Source of the DNA: Microthrixaceae bacterium
Lineage (GTDB): Bacteria > Actinomycetota > Acidimicrobiia > Acidimicrobiales > Acidimicrobilacustridaceae
Length of the DNA: 64,000 nt
NCBI GenBank assembly: GCA_947449015.1
Contig: CANFQA010000011.1
Location: 1 to 64,000, forward strand
Reading direction: 5' to 3'
Below the pieces are notes generated by a model. That model searched no databases, was not told the origin of the DNA, and saw nothing but the letters and a program-made list of their open reading frames with translations. Shown here piece by piece: positions 38,466 to 50,849 of this stretch. A program made the translations under genes and the position numbers. Each line of letters starts with the position of its first letter. Within the stretch, counting starts at the first letter, position 1.

Positions 38466-38593
38466 CACTGTTGGTGACTGGTTGGTTGCCCATATTCGGC
38501 ATCTGCCGTTGACTGGGGCTCTCGATGTGGTCCGGCGCGTCCGGACACGACCGAGCCCCCCTCACCCCTTCCCGATGGAGCAGTGGAATACCC

Positions 38594-39616
38594 GTGTCAG
38601 AGACTGCTGTGGATGATGCGCCGGCACCGATCCCCGCCTCGCCGAAGGTTGGTCCGACCCCACGGATCGTCACTGAGGTACCTAGCGCCGTTGACCGACG
38701 GTTCAACGCCGTCACCATGGGCGCAGGAATCTCAGTTCTCGTCCTTTTGCTGCTCGTCGGCGGCTTCCTGCTCATTCAGAGCTCTGATGCCATCTCCCAG
38801 ACCGGCATCCTTCGGTTCCTGACACGCACCGAATGGCGCACCGATGTGCAGCCTCCGGCAATCGGCGTCTTTGGGCTGCTCACCGGCACAGTGCTGGTTG
38901 CGCTTGTGGCGGTGTTCTTCGCAGTGCCGCTCAGCGTGTTCTGCGCTCTCGCCATCACCGAGTATTCAACGGCACGTCGACGCAAGTGGCTCATTGGTGT
39001 GGTCGATCTGCTTGCCGCAGTGCCGAGTTTGCTCTTCGGTCTCTGGGGCTTTTTGTTCCTCTCCGACAAGATGGTTCCGATTTCGCGCTGGCTGTCAGAC
39101 AACCTCGGGTTCATCCCGTTTTTCCATACTGAGCAGAACGCCAGCCTGACCGGTTCGATCTTCATCGCCGGCGTTGTCGTGGCCCTTATGGTCCTGCCGA
39201 TCATCACCTCTGTCACCCGGGAAGTCTTCTCACAGACCCCGGCAGGGGAGAAGGAAGCGGCACTCGCTCTCGGCGGTACCCGATGGGGCATGATCCGCGC
39301 GGTGGTTCTGCCTTATGGGCGTGGCGGCATCATCGGTGGCTCGATGCTCGGCCTGGGCCGTGCACTGGGTGAAACCATTGCCGTGGCGCTGCTCCTTCCG
39401 CAGGTGCCGCAGCGCATTGGCGACAGCATCCACATCCTGCAGAACGGCGGCGCAACGGTGTCGGGCTTCATTGCCAATCGTGCCGGCGCTGACTCGTTCA
39501 CTGTGTCGGGTCTGATGGCAGCCGGTCTCGTGCTGTTCATCATCACGCTGGCAACCAACATGGTCGCCTCAGTGGTCGTATCCAAGAGCCGTTCTGGCGC
39601 GGGGGTTGACCTGTGA
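38594..39616 (+). CDS. pstC: Phosphate ABC transporter permease PstC
   Basis: A PstC-type permease of about 340 residues from GTG 38594. I choose that start because the product then opens VSET, like the next gene; an ATG at 38525 would add 23 poorly conserved residues. It has a cytoplasmic N-terminus, about six membrane segments, and the permease loop EKEAALALGGTRWGMIRAVVLPYGRGGIIGG. GALGETIAVALLLPQ follows. First gene of the pstCABS operon; its stop overlaps pstA by 4 bp. Confidence 0.93.
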   Translation: MSETAVDDAPAPIPASPKVGPTPRIVTEVPSAVDRRFNAVTMGAGISVLVLLLLVGGFLLIQSSDAISQTGILRFLTRTEWRTDVQPPAIGVFGLLTGTVLVALVAVFFAVPLSVFCALAITEYSTARRRKWLIGVVDLLAAVPSLLFGLWGFLFLSDKMVPISRWLSDNLGFIPFFHTEQNASLTGSIFIAGVVVALMVLPIITSVTREVFSQTPAGEKEAALALGGTRWGMIRAVVLPYGRGGIIGGSMLGLGRALGETIAVALLLPQVPQRIGDSIHILQNGGATVSGFIANRAGADSFTVSGLMAAGLVLFIITLATNMVASVVVSKSRSGAGVDL

Positions 39617-40869
39617 GCGAGACGACTGTTACTCCGCCGACTTCACCTCAGCGCGCTGCTCCTTCGCGTCCCGGCCCAGTTCGTCGGGCTCGTCGCCCGC
39701 GGGAGTTCACCAACTTCGATGTGGTCGTTCTCGTCGGATCGCTCATCAGCGCCTTGTGCTTCAACTGGCTGATCTTCTACCGCCTCACTGCCGGCGCAAG
39801 CCTCTTCGGCTTCCTTCTGTGCTCCTATCTCAGCTTCCTCGCCTTGTTCGCGGTCGTTACCGCTGATCGGCTAGGTCGTCTTGTGGCCACCGATCGAGTG
39901 ATGACGGTCGTGGTTGTCAGCGCGGCGGCGATCGTATTCGTTCCGCTGGTGCTGCTCATCGGGTACATCCTTGTGCAGGGCCTCAAAGCGCTGCGTCCCA
40001 ACTTCTTTGTGAATGATCAGCAGGGCATCACACCGGTTCTTCCCTCCACCGCCGGTGGGGCATCGCATGCCATTGTCGGCTCGATCGAACAGGTGGGTCT
40101 GGCACTTTTGTGGTCGCTGCCGCTCGCGCTCGCAGCTGCGGTGTTCCTCAACGAGTCGCGTAGCAAATGGCGTCGACCCGTTCGCATCTTCGTCGATGCC
40201 ATGAGCGGCCTTCCCTCCATCGTTGCTGGTCTGTTCATCTTCGCCACGCTCATTCTTCCGTTCGCCAAGAGCGGCAATCCGCTGTTCGGTTACAACGGCT
40301 TCATGGCCTCGCTTGCCTTGGCGATCACGATGCTGCCCACCATCACCCGCACTGTTGATGTGGTGCTTCGTCTTGTTCCCGATGGCCTTCGCGAAGCATC
40401 GCTCGCACTTGGCGCATCACGGGCTCGCACCGTGTTCTCGGTGGTGTTTCCCACCGCTCGTACCGGCATGACCACCGCCGTGGTGCTTGGCATCGCCCGC
40501 GCGGTCGGCGAAACCGCACCGCTGCTGTTCACGGCGTTTGGCTACGACCTCATGAACGCCAACCCTTTCTCGGGGTCGCAGGAGAGCTTGCCGCTGTTCG
40601 TTTATCGCAATATCCGCAAGCCTGATATCTCCGCAATCGAACGTGGTTTCGCCGGCGCCCTTGTGCTGCTGCTTCTGGTGGTGGCGCTCTTCGCCCTTGC
40701 CCGTTTCATCGGTCGCGACCGTTCGAAACGCCGTGGCGCGCCAAAAGGTGGCGGCGCTGCGGTGCAGACCAATCCCGATGATCCCTTCAACTCGCCGACC
40801 TCGGACGCATTGGCGCCCGCGGGTGCTTTGGCGATGAATCCACACATCCAGGAGCCGATGACCCCATGA
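39613..40869 (+). CDS. pstA: Phosphate ABC transporter permease PstA
   Basis: A 418-residue permease, longer than usual for PstA (about 300). About 100 extra residues at the N-terminus contain additional hydrophobic segments ([19 protein letters not shown] and a second). The core carries the permease loop [27 protein letters not shown] and the PstA-type [26 protein letters not shown]. Start GTG overlaps the pstC stop, and its own stop overlaps the pstB start by 4 bp, so all four are coupled. A hydrophilic tail with Pro/Asp follows the last segment. Confidence 0.93.
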
Positions 40870-41741
40870 CTGACCTCGATGAAAGGGCACTGCCCATGAC
40901 TGATTCCGGAATTCTCCTCGCCGAACGACCGTCGGTCGGTCGAGCCACGATCATCGGTGGTCCGCCTCCGGGTGCGGCGACGCTCGAAGCCAAGGGAGCC
41001 TGCGCGTGGTTCGGTGAGCGTCTCGTGCTCGAGGGTGTTGACCTCATCATGCCTGCCGGTCAGGTCACAGCGCTTATTGGTCCTTCGGGCTGCGGCAAGT
41101 CCACGTTCCTGCGTCTGCTCAATCGCATGCATGAGCTCATTCCGGGCGCAGCACTCGACGGCGAGATCCTGCTCGATGGTGACGACATCTATGCCACTGG
41201 CACCCGAGCCCAGCAGGTTCGCATGCGCATCGGCATGGTGTTCCAGAAGCCCAATCCTTTCCCAGCCATGAGCATCCGCGAGAACGTCCTTGCTGGTCTC
41301 AAACTTGCTCGACTCAAGTGCGACGAGAAGGACGATCTTGTTGAGCAGTCGCTGATTCGCGCCGGCCTCTGGAAGGAAGTACGTGATCGTCTCGACAGCG
41401 CCGGTGGTGCGCTCTCCGGTGGTCAGCAGCAGCGTCTGTGCATCGCCCGATCACTTGCGGTGCAGCCCAATGTGCTGCTCATGGACGAACCGTGTTCGGC
41501 GCTCGATCCCACCTCAACTCGACGTGTCGAGGAGACCATTGACGAACTTCGCGGTGAAGTGACTGTCGTCATCGTCACGCACAACATGCAGCAGGCCAAT
41601 CGTGTCTCTGACAGCTGTGCGTTCTTCCTCGCCGCCGAGAACCAGCCCGGTGTCGTTGTCGAGCAGGGTCCCACCCGCAAGATGTTCGAGAACCCCGACG
41701 ATCCCCGCACCCTTGACTATGTCGAAGGTCGCTTCGGCTGA
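40866..41741 (+). CDS. pstB: Phosphate ABC transporter ATP-binding protein PstB
   Basis: A 291-residue ATPase with Walker [10 protein letters not shown] (about 72-80), signature [17 protein letters not shown], Walker [14 protein letters not shown], and the H-loop [14 protein letters not shown]. The [16 protein letters not shown] segment and [12 protein letters not shown] are specific to PstB. There are about 40 extra N-terminal residues; an in-frame ATG at residue 11 (40896) is an alternative start. The stop and the next ATG share a base (TGATG), coupling pstB to the binding-protein gene. Confidence 0.95.
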
Positions 41742-43255
41742 TGTCTGGTTACCTCATTCGCTGCGCAACGCGACTTCTCGCCGTTGTCAGCGTGTTGGCA
41801 TCGGGAGCATTGCTTTCGCTCTCGGCGGCTCCTCCTGCCAGCGCGGCCCCGGCGCGCATCAATGGCCAGGGATCCTCCTATGTGGCACTTGCCATGCAGC
41901 AGTGGGTTGCCGACGCGCAGACCTCCGGCCTACAGGTGAACTATCTGCCTACCGGTTCCCCGGCTGGTCTCACCTCCTTCGGGCAATCCCTCGCCGATTT
42001 CGCTGGTACCGAAGCGGAGTTCTCGGCGCTGTCCACTCAGGGCATCGGTGACACCCGCGGCTACCAGTACGTACCCGACGTCGCTGGCGCAGTGGCGATC
42101 ATGTACAACGTCCAGGATACGGCTGGCCGCAAGGTCGATTACCTGCATCTGACCCGGCGCACTATCGCCCGGATTTTCACTGGCGACATCACATCCTGGA
42201 GTGATCCGGCGATCACGGCCGACAACAAGGGTCTCGTGCTGCCGAATCAGCCCATCAATGTGGTGTACCGCGGTGGACAGTCAGGTACCACCGGGTTGTT
42301 CTACGACTTCGTCGCCAACGTGGCCCCCGATGTGTTCGGACCATGGGCGGCACGCAACAGCTTCCCCACGTCGGTTCGCATCATCCAGCTCGACAGTTCG
42401 CCAGGGTTCGTGCCGAAATCCCAAGCGTTCCAAGGTTCAGATCAGATCGCCCAGTACATCGGCAGCGGTCAGGGTCTCTGGAGCATCGGCTACGACGAGT
42501 TCGGCTATGCCAAGACCTATGACGTGAGTGCCGCGTGGGTTGAGAACGCAGCCGGCCAGTCAGTCCTTCCCTATGCCGAGAACATTTCGGCTGCGCTCGA
42601 ATCGGCGGCGCTGCGTTCTGATCTTTCGCAGGAACTCTCGGGTGTCTACAACTCAACCAACCCGATCGCCTATCCAATCTCGGCCTACAGCTACATCGTC
42701 ACCCAGTGCACCAGGTCCGCTGATCGCCCCACCTGTCAGGGGCCATATCCCAACTCCGGTATCACCGAGACGCTCACGAGTTGGATGCGCTACATCGCAT
42801 GCGAAGGTCAGGTGAATATGGCCCGCATCGGCTATTCACCGCTGCCACCCAACCTCTCGCAAGAGGTGGCGAATTCGATTGCCCGCCTCACGGGTGCCCC
42901 AGCCGAGCAGCTCAGTGCTGCCAACTGTGCCAACCCTCGATTCAGTGGATCAGTGGGTGATGGCGGCGCACCGCCTGTCGATCCGATCGCCAATGTTGAT
43001 TCCATTGGCGGGGGAACCGACATTGGTGCGGATGGCACTGGAACCTCGGCAGCAGGCGGGGGCAAAGGGTTGGTTGTTTCCAGCGGAGGCGGCAGCACTG
43101 ACTGGCGTCGTGCCACCCCAGTTGCCTACTTGGGCCCGTCGGTAGCTTCGTCGAGCCCGATCGCCGTACTTGGCCTGGTGGCGATCATGGTTCTGCCGTT
43201 GGCGGTTGGTGGCGTGATCGCCCGCCGACGCCGGGTTGGCTCACCCAAGGCCTGA
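41741..43255 (+). CDS. pstS: Membrane-anchored phosphate-binding protein PstS
   Basis: A 504-residue binding protein. A Sec signal ends near PPASAAPA (type I cleavage; no lipobox). The phosphate-binding region is visible as GQGSSYVALAMQQW and GGQSGTTGLFYDFV, with the PstS-type C-lobe (MRYIACEGQVNMARIGYSPLP). After a Gly/Asp-rich linker the C-terminus has one membrane helix (AVLGLVAIMVLPLAVGGVIA) and a basic tail RRRRVG. So it is anchored by a C-terminal helix and not by a lipid. No LPxTG is seen. It is coupled to pstB by one base. Confidence 0.9.
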   Translation: MSGYLIRCATRLLAVVSVLASGALLSLSAAPPASAAPARINGQGSSYVALAMQQWVADAQTSGLQVNYLPTGSPAGLTSFGQSLADFAGTEAEFSALSTQGIGDTRGYQYVPDVAGAVAIMYNVQDTAGRKVDYLHLTRRTIARIFTGDITSWSDPAITADNKGLVLPNQPINVVYRGGQSGTTGLFYDFVANVAPDVFGPWAARNSFPTSVRIIQLDSSPGFVPKSQAFQGSDQIAQYIGSGQGLWSIGYDEFGYAKTYDVSAAWVENAAGQSVLPYAENISAALESAALRSDLSQELSGVYNSTNPIAYPISAYSYIVTQCTRSADRPTCQGPYPNSGITETLTSWMRYIACEGQVNMARIGYSPLPPNLSQEVANSIARLTGAPAEQLSAANCANPRFSGSVGDGGAPPVDPIANVDSIGGGTDIGADGTGTSAAGGGKGLVVSSGGGSTDWRRATPVAYLGPSVASSSPIAVLGLVAIMVLPLAVGGVIARRRRVGSPKA

Positions 43256-44837: not shown

Positions 44838-45521
44838 ATGTCCGCAATTCGCTCCACCTGGCTTGAACCGAGAGTCATGGTCCCCTCCGTCATCGCAGTG
44901 GTGGCGGTCGTGGCCCTACTCACGGTGCTGCTGGTGGGCGGAGGTTCGGGTGGAACGACTGGAACCGCTGCTGGTGCCAATGCAACAACGTCAGAGGTTT
45001 CCGGATCCGGATCGACTGACACCGGCGGTTCTCCAGCATCATCGGTAGTCCCCACCCCGACGACACCGCAGGGTCCCTACACCACACCGACAATGCCGGT
45101 GCAGGTGGAGGTGCCCGATTCCGCTGGGGTTTCCCAGACCGACGGGGTCCTCGATGGGCAGGCCGTCACGGTTCACGCCAGTCCCGAATCCGGATCTCAG
45201 CTCTTCGGGGTCGAGGCCAGGTTGTGTCGGGGTGATGTGGCGGTCTCCAGTGACGGGGACTTCGCTCCCACGCTGGGCGGTGTGTGTATCGACAAGCCAC
45301 TCTCAACCGGATCCGACGCCAAGGTCAGTGTCGTCGGAGTCGAGCCCTACTCGGGGCTGGATGTCACCTTCCGAGTTGGTGTCGGTTCCACCACCTTCAT
45401 GACCCAGTACGACGGATCTACCGCCATCACCTGCGGTCCGGGTTCTCCTTGCCAGATCGTGCTCAAGCTTCAGTACCCGAAGGGATTCGGCTTCAAGGGA
45501 ATCCCTGTTACCTACCGCTGA
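44838..45521 (+). CDS. Membrane-anchored protein with a neocarzinostatin-like four-cysteine domain
   Basis: A 227-residue protein starting at ATG 44838 (AAAGGT upstream). One membrane helix near the N-terminus (about 14-34, IAVVAVVALLTVLLV) and a long Gly/Ser/Thr/Pro linker lead to a single outside domain (about 98-227). The domain has cysteines near 130, 150, 199 and 205 in RLC, GGVC, ITCG and PCQIV, with the motifs GDFAPTLGG and FMTQYDGST. The same domain occurs in the next two proteins. Its pattern resembles neocarzinostatin-type Ig-like domains. Function unknown. Confidence 0.8.
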   Translation: MSAIRSTWLEPRVMVPSVIAVVAVVALLTVLLVGGGSGGTTGTAAGANATTSEVSGSGSTDTGGSPASSVVPTPTTPQGPYTTPTMPVQVEVPDSAGVSQTDGVLDGQAVTVHASPESGSQLFGVEARLCRGDVAVSSDGDFAPTLGGVCIDKPLSTGSDAKVSVVGVEPYSGLDVTFRVGVGSTTFMTQYDGSTAITCGPGSPCQIVLKLQYPKGFGFKGIPVTYR

Positions 45522-45600: not shown

Positions 45601-47724
45601 ATGATTCGTACCTTCCGATCCCGCCTCGTGGCTGTGTCCACCGGTGTGCTGCTCACCGCAGCCACACTCGGTTCACTTGCCCCGATGGCCCAGGCTGAGA
45701 CCGTGGCAGGGCAGATCCCCGCCACGATCACTGCCTCACCCACCACGGGGCTCGTCTCGGGCTCCACGGTCACGGTCTCAGCCACTGCTGACACCAACTG
45801 GAACATCTATTCACTCCGGGCTCGCCTCTGTAAGAGCGATGCCGTCATCAACAACGCTGGTGACTTCTCGCCGACCCTCGGCGGAAACTGTGTTTCCGCT
45901 CCGCTGGCCAACAACACCGACAGCGATGTCACTGTGAACACCGAACCCGGATCTCGCGGTTCAGCGTCACTTGATTTCAAGGTCGGCGCCGGCAGCAACA
46001 CCTTCACCACCCAGTACGACGGCTCAACGACGATCGCATGCGGCGTCACCTCAGCCACCGGGTGCAAACTCGTTGTCGAGATGTCGGCCACCAATCTTGC
46101 GGCCCGCGTGATCTACACCTCGTTCCCGCTCACGTATGCCTTGCCTGCTGCTCCTACAAGTGTCACCGCAGCTTGGGGTAACGCCAAAGCACTGGTGTCC
46201 TGGACGGCTCCTGCCTCCCAGCAGGGCCTGCCGGCGGTGACGTCCTACACGGTGACCTCCTCGCCCGGCAGCTTCACCTGCACCACCGCAACCACATCGT
46301 GTGAGGTGCCAAGTTTGAGCAACGGCACGCCGTACACGTTCAGCGTGGTCGCCACCAACGCGCTCGGTGACTCCTCGGCCTCAACCCCGTCGACTGCAGT
46401 CACGCCGTCGAGTGCTCACTATGTACTCTCGGCCACTCCGACAACCGGACTTGTTTCTGGAAACACTGTGGCGCAGTCGGTCACGATGAGCTCGGGATAC
46501 AACCTGTATTCGGTTCGTACTCGCCTGTGTCTGGCATCGGCCACCATCAACAACGCTGGTGATTTCTCGCCGACGCTCGGTGGTAACTGTGCCGCGGCAC
46601 CGCTGGCCAGCAACACCAACAACGACGTCACTGTGACGACAACTGCTGGTAACCGCAACGCAGCCACGCTGAATTTCAAGGTGGGTTCGGGTACCAACAC
46701 CTTCACCTCTCAGTACGACGGCTCAAAGACCGTTGCATGTGGCCCGAGCGCACCAGCAGCATGTGCCCTGGTGACCGAACTCAGCTACACCACTGCACTT
46801 GGCGTTGGCAAGGTCGTCTACACCTCCACGGCCCTCACCTATGCCACTGCCCCGGCTGCCCCGGCAGCCCCGACTGGCGTGCGCAATGGTACCGGCGCTG
46901 TGACCGTGTCCTGGACTGCTCCGGCTTCAGATAGCACGATCACGGGCTACACCGTTGAGGCTTCGCCCCAGGTCGCTAGCGTGACCAAGGGCTGCACCGT
47001 TGCAGGAAACGTGACGAGCTGTTCGGTGACAGGTCTGACCAACGCCACCAGTTACACCTTCAAGGTCAAGGCCACGAGTGCTGCCGGAGTTGGTGCGTTC
47101 TCCGCCAACTCTCAGGGGATTGCTCCCTCCGCTACGGCAGCAGCAGTTTCGGCCAACCCCTCGGGGTTCGCTGTTGACACTGCGTCGAATGGCACCTTCG
47201 TGGTCCACTGGACCGCACCGACGGACAACAGGGGATCAAGCATCATCTCCTACACCGTCACTGCAACGAAGAGTGGTGAAACCACTCGAAGCTGCACGGT
47301 GAACTTTGGTACGAACTCCTGCAGCGTCGCCAATGTTGTCAACGGTGTGAAGTACACGCTCAAGTTGGTGGCGACGAACTCGAAGGGCAACAGCACCGGT
47401 AGTAGCCTGACGAACAAGCTGACCACGGCTGCACCTGATGCCCCGACTGGGGTCTCTGCAACCCAGACCGGCAATAGCACGTCACCAGTCAAGGTGTCTT
47501 GGACCAAGCCCAACACCAATGGTTCAACTATCACGCTGTACACGGTCACCGCGTACCGCAACAACGTGCTGGTGGACGGGAAGTCGTGCACGAGCGGTGG
47601 TGCAGCCAACTGCACCATCAGTGGTCTGACCAAGAACACCACGTACACCTTTAAGGTCACCGCTACCAATGGCGCAGGCATAAGCCTGGCCGGCGTTTCA
47701 AGCGGTTACACCACGAAGGCCTGA
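45601..47724 (+). CDS. Secreted protein with two neocarzinostatin-like and four fibronectin type III domains
   Basis: A 707-residue exported protein. Signal peptide ends near PMAQA. Order: four-Cys domain (about 41-180, Cys 77, 97, 147, 155), Fn3 (182-272), a second four-Cys domain (275-416, Cys 310, 330, 380, 388), then three Fn3 domains to the end (WTAPASDSTITGYTV, WTAPTDNRGSSIISYTV, WTKPNTNGSTITLYTV). Both four-Cys copies share NNAGDFSPTLGGNC. No C-terminal helix or sorting motif, so it should be free or held by partners. It looks like an adhesive or spacer protein of the Pst cluster. Confidence 0.85.
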   Translation: MIRTFRSRLVAVSTGVLLTAATLGSLAPMAQAETVAGQIPATITASPTTGLVSGSTVTVSATADTNWNIYSLRARLCKSDAVINNAGDFSPTLGGNCVSAPLANNTDSDVTVNTEPGSRGSASLDFKVGAGSNTFTTQYDGSTTIACGVTSATGCKLVVEMSATNLAARVIYTSFPLTYALPAAPTSVTAAWGNAKALVSWTAPASQQGLPAVTSYTVTSSPGSFTCTTATTSCEVPSLSNGTPYTFSVVATNALGDSSASTPSTAVTPSSAHYVLSATPTTGLVSGNTVAQSVTMSSGYNLYSVRTRLCLASATINNAGDFSPTLGGNCAAAPLASNTNNDVTVTTTAGNRNAATLNFKVGSGTNTFTSQYDGSKTVACGPSAPAACALVTELSYTTALGVGKVVYTSTALTYATAPAAPAAPTGVRNGTGAVTVSWTAPASDSTITGYTVEASPQVASVTKGCTVAGNVTSCSVTGLTNATSYTFKVKATSAAGVGAFSANSQGIAPSATAAAVSANPSGFAVDTASNGTFVVHWTAPTDNRGSSIISYTVTATKSGETTRSCTVNFGTNSCSVANVVNGVKYTLKLVATNSKGNSTGSSLTNKLTTAAPDAPTGVSATQTGNSTSPVKVSWTKPNTNGSTITLYTVTAYRNNVLVDGKSCTSGGAANCTISGLTKNTTYTFKVTATNGAGISLAGVSSGYTTKA
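45721..46848 (+). repeat. Internal duplication of the four-Cys domain coding sequence
   Basis: Two direct copies (about 45721-46140 and 46423-46848) encode the same about 140-residue domain. They remain similar at the DNA level around the GDFSPTLGGNC segment (near 45862 and 46563). Confidence 0.8.
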
Positions 47725-47742: not shown

Positions 47743-49824
47743 ATGATGACCCCCCGGCTTCGCCGGATCGGTTCGCTGGTGGTGGTGAGCGCCGTGGCAG
47801 TTGCTGCGGTACTCACCACCTTCGGCGCGTCAATCGCCCCTGTGCACGCAGCCGATAACGCATCGGCACCATGGACCGTGTCGGTGACCCCTAACACGGC
47901 CCTCACCGATGGCCAGTTGGTCTCGATCAACCTTCAGACCACGACCGACCATCGGATCTACGAGGCGAACGCGCAGATCTGTCGTCTCGGTGTTGACTAC
48001 GCCCCGAGCGATGGAGAGCGCCCGGCCACAGACTTTTCAGCCGGCGATCTCAACTGCCCCGCTGTCCCGATCTCTTCGAGTGCTGACGTGCAGACCGGCG
48101 ACGAAAACACCTACATCGGCGCGGTCGAACCGGGCGGAGAGACCTTCAGCATGTACGTCGGGAGTGGAGTGGTTGAGTGGCCTGCCTCCTCAAGCGGCCG
48201 GACCCAGCGCCTGGCGTGCGACTCTGAGAATCCGTGCGCGCTTGTGGTGGAGGTCTATGGCTCCACTGCTCCAGGTGTTGCTCGTTGGATCCCCTACGTC
48301 CAGACCCTTAACTACCGGGTCGATGATCCGGTCGCCGGCTGCGGCGGACCGGCGACTGGCATCCTCAATACTGCTGGGGCTGAACGAACCACTGATGTTT
48401 GGATTAACTGGACTCTCGATCAATGTCACCTCCCCGGTGCGCAGGCTGGGGCCGCAAGTCGGGCAAGTTTCTCTGGCGAGGGTGATGCCATGGACGGCTA
48501 TTCGAGCGGCGCACTTGATCTTGCCTATAGCGCCGTTGGGTATGAGCCGGAACCGAAGCTCGGTCTCGGAACAAGATCCGAACCACTCGCCGCGCGCGCG
48601 TCGAGCGCCGTGCCGCTGGGGCTGAATGCCACAGTTGTTGCCGTTGGCAACGGCCGTCAGGGACCGAACAACCGCAAGATTCCGTTCTCCGATGTCAAGC
48701 TCACCATCGATATGGTCGCTCACATGTTTTCCGGCGGAGCGAGCGACTTCAACGATTACTCGTTGAGTGATTTCCTTGATCTCAATCCGCAGTTCCGCAC
48801 CGTGAGCGTGTTTTTACCAGCAGCAATCCAGGTGGGTGCGTTCGCTCCTGCTGATGCATCGTCTTGGTTTCTCACCAGCTTCATGAAGGCGAATCGTCCC
48901 GAGCTCTGGAAGGTTCCGGACACCAATAAGTTCGGCCCGGAACGGGGTCTCACCAGAAACGCTGAAATCGCGTTTGGCTTGGCTTCCCCCTCCTTCAACG
49001 GTGCCGTTGACATGTTCACTGGCAATTCCGTGCTGGTGAAGACGTTGCGGAGCCAGAACACCAATGCGTACGGCGGTATCTGGTACCTCACTGATCTGGC
49101 GACTGCCAAGCGCCTCGGCCTTTCCGTCGCCAGCATTGAAAATGCCAATGGCGACTTCGTTTCTCCTACTGCTGCGTCCATGACCGCGGCGGTGGCCACG
49201 ATGACGAAGACCGATGACGGGCGCCTCATGCCTGACCCCACTGCAACAGTGGCTAAGGATGCAGTGCAGCCCTATCCGCTGACCTTCGTTGACTACGCCA
49301 TTGCGCCGACCTCGAAGCTCGTGGATTCGACCTGCAAGGGTCGGACCGCATCGCAAGCGCTGCTCAGCACCTGGCTGAACTACGCGGTCGCTGATGGGCA
49401 GGGCAAGCTGCCCGACGGGTATGTGCCACTTCCCGAGGATCTGAAGGCTTCGGCCACCGATGCAATCGCCAAGGTTGGCTCGGTGACGCCCGATTGCTTT
49501 ATCGAGGGGGATGCTCCGGGTACACCCGAGCCTCCGGACAGCGCCGGAGCGAATTCGTCAGGCGGCGTTGGTCGCGGTGGCCAGCGAGCCTCCACCGGGG
49601 CACCCGCCAACGGAGAGACACCAGTAGGTGGCGGAACGAATCGAGCCTCCGATGTGGCCTCTGCTGAGGTTCCAGAGTTCATGTCGCGGTCGGCTGCGAG
49701 TACGGCGGCCGCCCTTGGCGGTCTCGTCGTCGTGTTCGGTCTGCTCACCACCATGGCGCTGGCCACAACTGGCCGCATGCCGTCGCTTGCCAGCATCCGT
49801 TCCCGATTCGGAGGCACCCGATGA
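47743..49824 (+). CDS. Membrane-anchored protein with a four-Cys domain fused to a PstS-like domain
   Basis: A 693-residue exported protein. Signal peptide ends near PVHAADN. The N-terminal domain (about 44-193) is a divergent copy of the cluster's four-Cys domain (Cys 80, 105, 159, 165; ACDSENPCALVVEV). Then comes a long PstS-like region whose C-lobe is clear: YPLTFVDYAIAPTSK and LLSTWLNYAVADGQGKLPDGYVPLPEDL. A Gly-rich linker leads to a C-terminal membrane helix (ALGGLVVVFGLLTTMALATT) with a basic tail. ATG at 47743, with ATG also at 47746, behind GAGGAG. Its stop overlaps the sortase-fold gene by 4 bp. Confidence 0.82.
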   Translation: MMTPRLRRIGSLVVVSAVAVAAVLTTFGASIAPVHAADNASAPWTVSVTPNTALTDGQLVSINLQTTTDHRIYEANAQICRLGVDYAPSDGERPATDFSAGDLNCPAVPISSSADVQTGDENTYIGAVEPGGETFSMYVGSGVVEWPASSSGRTQRLACDSENPCALVVEVYGSTAPGVARWIPYVQTLNYRVDDPVAGCGGPATGILNTAGAERTTDVWINWTLDQCHLPGAQAGAASRASFSGEGDAMDGYSSGALDLAYSAVGYEPEPKLGLGTRSEPLAARASSAVPLGLNATVVAVGNGRQGPNNRKIPFSDVKLTIDMVAHMFSGGASDFNDYSLSDFLDLNPQFRTVSVFLPAAIQVGAFAPADASSWFLTSFMKANRPELWKVPDTNKFGPERGLTRNAEIAFGLASPSFNGAVDMFTGNSVLVKTLRSQNTNAYGGIWYLTDLATAKRLGLSVASIENANGDFVSPTAASMTAAVATMTKTDDGRLMPDPTATVAKDAVQPYPLTFVDYAIAPTSKLVDSTCKGRTASQALLSTWLNYAVADGQGKLPDGYVPLPEDLKASATDAIAKVGSVTPDCFIEGDAPGTPEPPDSAGANSSGGVGRGGQRASTGAPANGETPVGGGTNRASDVASAEVPEFMSRSAASTAAALGGLVVVFGLLTTMALATTGRMPSLASIRSRFGGTR

Positions 49825-50849
49825 GTCTGTTTGAGGAAGTCTCCGTCGTCGGAAGTCTTGACGTCCTTCCGCAGCACCGTGAGTTCGCGCCACAACCTGA
49901 GGCCGCGCCAATGCATCGCCCCGGAGTCCCCTCCGGGCGATTGCTCGCGTTGTGGGTGGTTGTTCTGCTTGTGGTTGTCGCGGTTGTGCTCATCGCCGTC
50001 GAGCCGTTGTTCCAGCAGCGTGAGCAGTCATTGCTGCTTTCGGACTACCGCGAGTCGATCCAAATGGCGGCGAATCAGTCCACCGGTCTCGGTGGGGTCG
50101 AGGTTTCGACCACGGCACCAGAGTTCGGCAGCCCCGTCGGGATTATGGAAATCGGGCCGTTGGCACTCCAGCAGGTGATCGTCGAGGGCGCGTCCTCCCC
50201 GGTCATGCAGAACGGTCCGGGACATGTCCCTGGCACCGCGGCGCCTGGTCAGCCCGGTAACAGCGTCATCGTTGGTCGGTCCGCGCTGTTCGGTGCACCG
50301 TTCGCCGATCTCTCGGCGCTTGCCGTCGATGATCTGATCGCGGTCTCCACCACCCAGGGCCAGGTTGTCTATCGCGTTGCCGAGGCGTCATCTGTGCAGT
50401 TGAGCAACGCCAAGTCAGCGAACGCCTCGAAGCCCACAGCAGCCGCAAGTAGCACCTATTCGCCGATTCTGGATTCCGGTCGTATCTCCATCGATGACCT
50501 GTACGGCCCGTCATCGGACGATCGCCTCACGCTGGTCACATCGAACAGCGCGTTCCCGTTCAATACCGCTGATGCCCGCGTCGTGATCGCAGTCATGGAT
50601 GGCAAGCCGTTTGCTCCCACTCCGCAGAACGGTCGAAGCACACGTCAGACCGGCACCAGCGGTGACACCTCTCGCTGGCCAATGGCCCTGCTCGCTCTTC
50701 TCTGTCTCGGCGGCGCAATTGTGGGCGCGGTGCTGCTCTACCGTCGTTCAAGCCCGCGGGTTGCCTATCTGCTTACCGTGCCGCCACTGCTGGTGTTCGC
50801 CGTGGTCGCCTCGGAGACGCTGAGTCAGTTGCTCCCCGCCTGGTTCTAG
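49821..50849 (+). CDS. Sortase-fold membrane protein lacking catalytic His and Cys
   Basis: A 342-residue protein with one N-terminal helix (about 43-61), a sortase domain (about 95-262), and two more helices at the C-terminus (about 287-307 and 317-335). The fold is recognisable from NSVIVGRSALFGAPFADLSAL and DDLIAVSTTQGQVVYRV. Active sortases have GH in the first segment and TLxTC before the last strand; here these are GR (R153) and TLVTS (S241). The Arg of the last strand (ADARVVIAV, R253) is kept. So two of three catalytic residues are absent. It is translationally coupled to the preceding surface protein. Confidence 0.85.
   Translation: MSLFEEVSVVGSLDVLPQHREFAPQPEAAPMHRPGVPSGRLLALWVVVLLVVVAVVLIAVEPLFQQREQSLLLSDYRESIQMAANQSTGLGGVEVSTTAPEFGSPVGIMEIGPLALQQVIVEGASSPVMQNGPGHVPGTAAPGQPGNSVIVGRSALFGAPFADLSALAVDDLIAVSTTQGQVVYRVAEASSVQLSNAKSANASKPTAAASSTYSPILDSGRISIDDLYGPSSDDRLTLVTSNSAFPFNTADARVVIAVMDGKPFAPTPQNGRSTRQTGTSGDTSRWPMALLALLCLGGAIVGAVLLYRRSSPRVAYLLTVPPLLVFAVVASETLSQLLPAWF

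Follow-up and report, generated by a model that had tools for sequence, protein, structure and literature searches.

The window, i.e. the whole stretch of 64,000 nucleotides that we analysed, carries an operon that runs in the order PstC, PstA, PstB, PstS, a second binding protein, a beta-domain protein, a fibronectin type III (FN3) repeat protein, a PstS-like protein and a sortase homologue, which we call the pseudo-sortase. The first four genes lie at 38525-43255 and stand in the same order in relatives. Genes were called as open reading frames (ORFs); the names PstC, PstA and PstB are based on sequence and on operon order. We use pst2 for this alternative type of Pst operon, in which PstS lacks a lipobox and has a C-terminal membrane helix. 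The locus comprises:

38525..39616, + strand: PstC-like permease, first gene of the module, kept in relatives
39613..40869, + strand: PstA-like permease, kept in relatives
40866..41741, + strand: PstB-like ATPase, kept in relatives
41741..43255, + strand: PstS of the pst2 type, with SGTT, without lipobox, with a C-terminal membrane helix
43348..44763, + strand: second solute-binding protein (PBP_like_2, E 3.4e-13)
44838..45521, + strand: small beta-domain protein, exported or membrane-tethered, kept in the pst2 operons of the clade
45601..47724, + strand: exported protein with FN3 repeats (fn3, E 7.9e-50)
47743..49824, + strand: PstS-like protein of 693 aa, with a C-terminal membrane helix, without SGTT and GxGAT
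49821..49824, + strand: ATGA stop/start overlap between the PstS-like gene and the pseudo-sortase gene, kept in three orthologues
49821..50849, + strand: pseudo-sortase of 342 aa, with an N-terminal helix, a sortase ectodomain (residues 98-262 approximately) and two C-terminal helices
50277..50279, + strand: codon CGG, Arg153 in place of the catalytic His (SrtE1 His251)
50541..50543, + strand: codon TCG, Ser241 in place of the catalytic Cys (SrtE1 Cys320)
50577..50579, + strand: Arg253, the catalytic Arg (SrtE1 Arg329), retained here and missing from most orthologues

The PstS of the window keeps SGTT, and phosphate is its putative substrate. The PstS-like protein encoded directly upstream of the pseudo-sortase lacks both SGTT and GxGAT in 6 of 6 orthologues, that of the window included, and probably does without the usual phosphate binding. 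The preliminary description had proposed that these last two genes are translationally coupled, which agrees with the ATGA overlap found here and likewise in the three orthologues tested.

The fold and its catalytic positions

Sortases are enzymes that attach proteins to bacterial cell walls. They are regarded as transpeptidases, and their homologues are automatically annotated as such. The ORF at 49821-50849 had been described as having a sortase fold in which the catalytic His and the Cys of the TLxTC motif are replaced and only the Arg is kept. The fold is borne out: Pfam PF04203 (Sortase E) matches residues 110-256 with E 6.8e-15, over the curated cut-off, and a profile of the family retrieved two class E sortases of solved structure, 5go6 and 5go5 (E 3e-22 and 5e-21). 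Class E is also the best subfamily in NCBIfam, at 63.8 bits for a cut-off of 160. The structure models are of low confidence. AlphaFold2 gave a pLDDT of 43 for the full-length protein and of 48 for the ectodomain (four input sequences each). When the ectodomain model was searched with Foldseek, sortases occurred throughout the 50 best matches, but with E above 1e-3 and TM of 0.3-0.4. Membrane helices were placed at residues 39-88, 286-309 and 312-341 in the low-confidence model of the full-length protein.

The catalytic triad of SrtE1 consists of His251, Cys320 and Arg329, and a Tyr in the b3/b4 loop reads the LAxTG signal (PMC5148588). Both replacements in the window are as described. The position of the catalytic His is Arg153 (GNSVIVG-R-SALFGAPF, for AGHRTTY in catalytic relatives), and that of the Cys is Ser241 (LTLVT-S, for LMAC or LTTC in relatives). 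The retention of Arg holds for this copy and for two close orthologues, but not for most orthologues of the window's clade, which have Gln, Glu, Asp, Thr or Asn at position 253. The signal-reading Tyr is also replaced, by Val (GPGHV). The sole Cys of the protein, Cys295, lies in the second membrane helix, therefore the ectodomain holds no substitute for the catalytic one. Its sole His, H135, belongs to the GPGH motif that is common to active relatives.

The replacements are shared across the family. All orthologues examined lack both His and Cys; they include sequences of 11 further genomes in the genus and of two that do not belong to it. The named relatives are metagenome-assembled genomes of Actinomycetota, one of them labelled Microthrixaceae. 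Between orthologues, dN/dS is 0.06-0.18 (Nei-Gojobori; dS exceeds 0.9 in all pairs, which makes the values imprecise), and the reading frames are intact in all complete orthologues. A private mutation of the copy in the window is ruled out by the orthologues and by dN/dS. The loss of catalytic residues might also be that of a decaying pseudogene, but this reading is refuted by the intact frames, by these ratios and by the conservation of the gene across the class. A non-catalytic sortase fold is thus strongly supported for this ORF by comparison of sequences, because the residues are lost family-wide, the gene is under purifying selection and the ectodomain has no further Cys.

Distribution and association with pst2

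We read the stretches of sequence around some 100 sortase homologues. Nearly all of them belong to the class, and they were ranked by similarity to the pseudo-sortase profile, therefore they are not a random sample. Among the first 60 homologues, 32 were in a Pst locus, and four further Pst-linked homologues were from elsewhere in the phylum (one in a genome of 9.9 Mb). His was absent in 34 of these 36 pst2-linked homologues, whereas the sortases outside Pst loci (n = 29) kept Cys in 27 cases and His in all 29. Cys was absent in all 36, and its loss was associated with pst2 linkage (Fisher exact test p = 3e-16, with related sequences counted as independent). The next 40 homologues of the class followed the same pattern: 39 were intact and the single Pst-linked one lacked Cys and His. 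In the whole census, the pst2-linked homologues (n = 37) kept Cys in no case and His in two, while Cys was kept in 66 of 68 sortases outside pst2 operons. Five more homologues, apparently linked to pst2 but on short or broken contigs, all lack Cys. None of the 33 readable pst2-linked members has the signal-reading Tyr of SrtE1, compared with 17 of 27 others. Judged from its members' sequences, the Cys-less family is a pseudoenzyme, conserved and tied to pst2. Two homologues without Cys, L053 and L147, have the His and lie away from Pst genes; they are possibly a separate kind of pseudo-sortase. An intact class E sortase (L292, genome G284, contig C5) was found divergent from an ordinary Pst operon whose PstS has a lipobox, which fits the rule that pseudo-sortases go with pst2. 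A scan of viral contigs gave no relative of the pseudo-sortase, and a search of plasmids gave one distant partial match only.

The residues found at the Cys position bear on whether the protein could still be an enzyme of different chemistry, e.g. with Ser241 as the nucleophile. Ser is frequent there (23 of 36 members; in the window's own clade, every member except one), but the position is Ala in 10 members and Val, Thr or Gly in one each, the His has become Arg, and the Arg is lost in most members of the window's own clade. We rejected a Ser nucleophile as the mechanism of the family, because Ala, Val and Gly also occur at this position, and consider residual enzymatic activity of this kind very unlikely.

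The pst2 operons differ from ordinary Pst operons in the anchoring of PstS. A C-terminal membrane helix is present on PstS in 27 of 27 pst2 operons and in none of 44 ordinary ones, counts that take related loci as independent (a 28th pst2 row, L119, was left out since an ordinary PstS had been picked up from the same stretch). A simple pattern finds the lipobox in 32 of the 44 ordinary PstS. The loci with a tail-anchored PstS and no pseudo-sortase gene are all interrupted by contig ends. Descent from a single ancient operon could also explain the association between tail-anchored PstS and the pseudo-sortase.

Within the genus, the PstC of pst2 occurs in 13 genomes and the pseudo-sortase in the same 13, although in G006 it is a 34-residue fragment at a contig end; G002 has a different type of pst2, likewise with a pseudo-sortase. 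In G020 (L231, contig C5, 4728-5376) the usual flanking genes are kept with only a short pstC remnant between them: this is an empty site from which the pst2 module was deleted. Across the genus, the genes of the module occur together or are missing together. Besides pst2, the genome of the window has an ordinary Pst operon (L227, contig C3, 15000-25000), which encodes a lipobox PstS and lacks a sortase. The same holds for the other genomes of the genus in which this operon is readable.

The position of the gene also allows its product to be read as a permease subunit for structure or assembly, one that makes no contact with the tails of binding proteins, e.g. a sensor or a chaperone of PstCA. 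Its three membrane helices would suit such a role, and in some lineages the gene sits within the permease operon, between pstS-like genes and pstB. However, the gene directly before it encodes a tail-anchored surface protein at almost every locus, and the two genes are coupled in the window, which makes this alternative unlikely.

Sorting signals and a proposed docking role

It had also been proposed that the neighbouring exported proteins lack LPxTG-like motifs. This stands for the operon of the window, where no protein has such a signal before its C-terminal helix, but does not extend to the whole family. A LATTG at the end of the protein encoded at 47743 was rejected as a signal: it sits in the tail, beyond the membrane helix. 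In five members of another branch (L049, L050, L112, L113 and L115), a surface protein with an LPxTG-like tail is encoded directly upstream of the Cys-less sortase, with the motifs LPMTG, LARTG, VPVTG, LPGTG and IPRTG. Overall, LPxTG-like tails were found in 10 of 296 tail-anchored ORFs, those five included. The LPxTG-like neighbours of this branch suggest that the family descends from a sortase-substrate pair. Elsewhere in the genome of the window, three proteins end in LPYTG signals, and one other sortase (contig C2) has intact GHRTTY, TLMAC and TRIVV motifs, so that an ordinary sortase pathway exists alongside the dead one.

This coexistence raises the alternative that the pseudo-sortase is a shield or competitor of the active sortase, one that binds sorting signals and spares nearby surface proteins from cutting and from wrong attachment to the wall. 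The active His/Cys/Arg sortase of the same genome, with its identical three-helix topology and LPYTG substrates, would provide the partner, and the LPxTG-like tails of coupled neighbours in one branch would provide the signal. Yet the neighbours in the window's clade have no signal and the Tyr that would read it is lost; we regard shielding as unlikely.

Our best available reading is that the protein is a dead class-E-type sortase, once half of a sortase-substrate pair, that now probably acts as a non-covalent dock and keeps binding proteins with tail anchors at the Pst permease. A docking platform in place of a transpeptidase had been suggested in the preliminary description, which did not recognise the Pst context. 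The ancestor would have been a sortase whose substrate was an LPxTG-type protein encoded at this locus. In the present protein, the old groove for sorting signals, or an adjacent face of the ectodomain, may bind the coupled PstS-like protein at its juxtamembrane tail and leave this tail uncut, and the three membrane helices may help to hold the tail-anchored binding proteins beside PstCA. Against docking stands the lack of a recognisable signal in the upstream protein of the window. Since the Tyr is absent in all 33 readable pst2-linked members, any binding of tails by the groove would differ from that of class E enzymes.

A more tentative proposal, which we put forward as possible, concerns history and partners. 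The sortase fold would have become such a non-covalent dock probably in a single event early in the history of Actinomycetota. The dock would pair with a PstS-like protein that has itself ceased to bind a ligand, and the result would be a tail-anchored, multi-protein complex for solute capture around the Pst permease. A quick tree was built from 70 sequences. On it, one side of a branch is made up of the pst2-linked proteins and one long-branch member; the support of this branch, 82, is not strong. The tree requires one change of the Cys state and four of the His state; it has no outgroup root, and the direction of the Cys change depends on the root.

We found no paper on a sortase pseudoenzyme in the open-access literature searched, outside of which most subscription papers and preprints lie. 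A conserved Cys-less lineage that spans the class and is tied to one type of uptake operon would show that the sortase fold has also been put to use as a binding module, and the dock, if true, would be a non-enzymatic use of it. Part of the sortase annotation in Actinomycetota would then be wrong, and pst2 would stand apart as a Pst-type system of its own, in which binding proteins are tail-anchored.

Comparison with known systems

The closest known fold is that of class E sortases (SrtE1 of Streptomyces coelicolor, 5cuw; SrtE of S. avermitilis, 5go5 and 5go6), shared with the pseudo-sortase by profile. Both have the PGQPGN, FGxPF, GD and GPGH motifs and the LTL strand. In contrast to these enzymes, the pseudo-sortase lacks the catalytic Cys and His and the Tyr after GPGH, has additional C-terminal helices and is linked to a Pst operon. 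Another relative is the active sortase of this genome (L001, contig C2 of G000), which is 32% identical to the pseudo-sortase. The two proteins share the N-terminal helix, the domain and a pair of C-terminal helices that end in LLPAxF. Unlike the pseudo-sortase, the active one keeps GHRTTY, TLMAC and TRIVV and is encoded away from Pst operons. As for the transporter, pst2 shares PstC, PstA, PstB and a PstS with SGTT with the phosphate ABC transporter PstSCAB. The two differ in that PstS is tail-anchored in pst2 and a lipoprotein in PstSCAB, and in that pst2 adds binding-protein-like proteins, repeat proteins and the pseudo-sortase.
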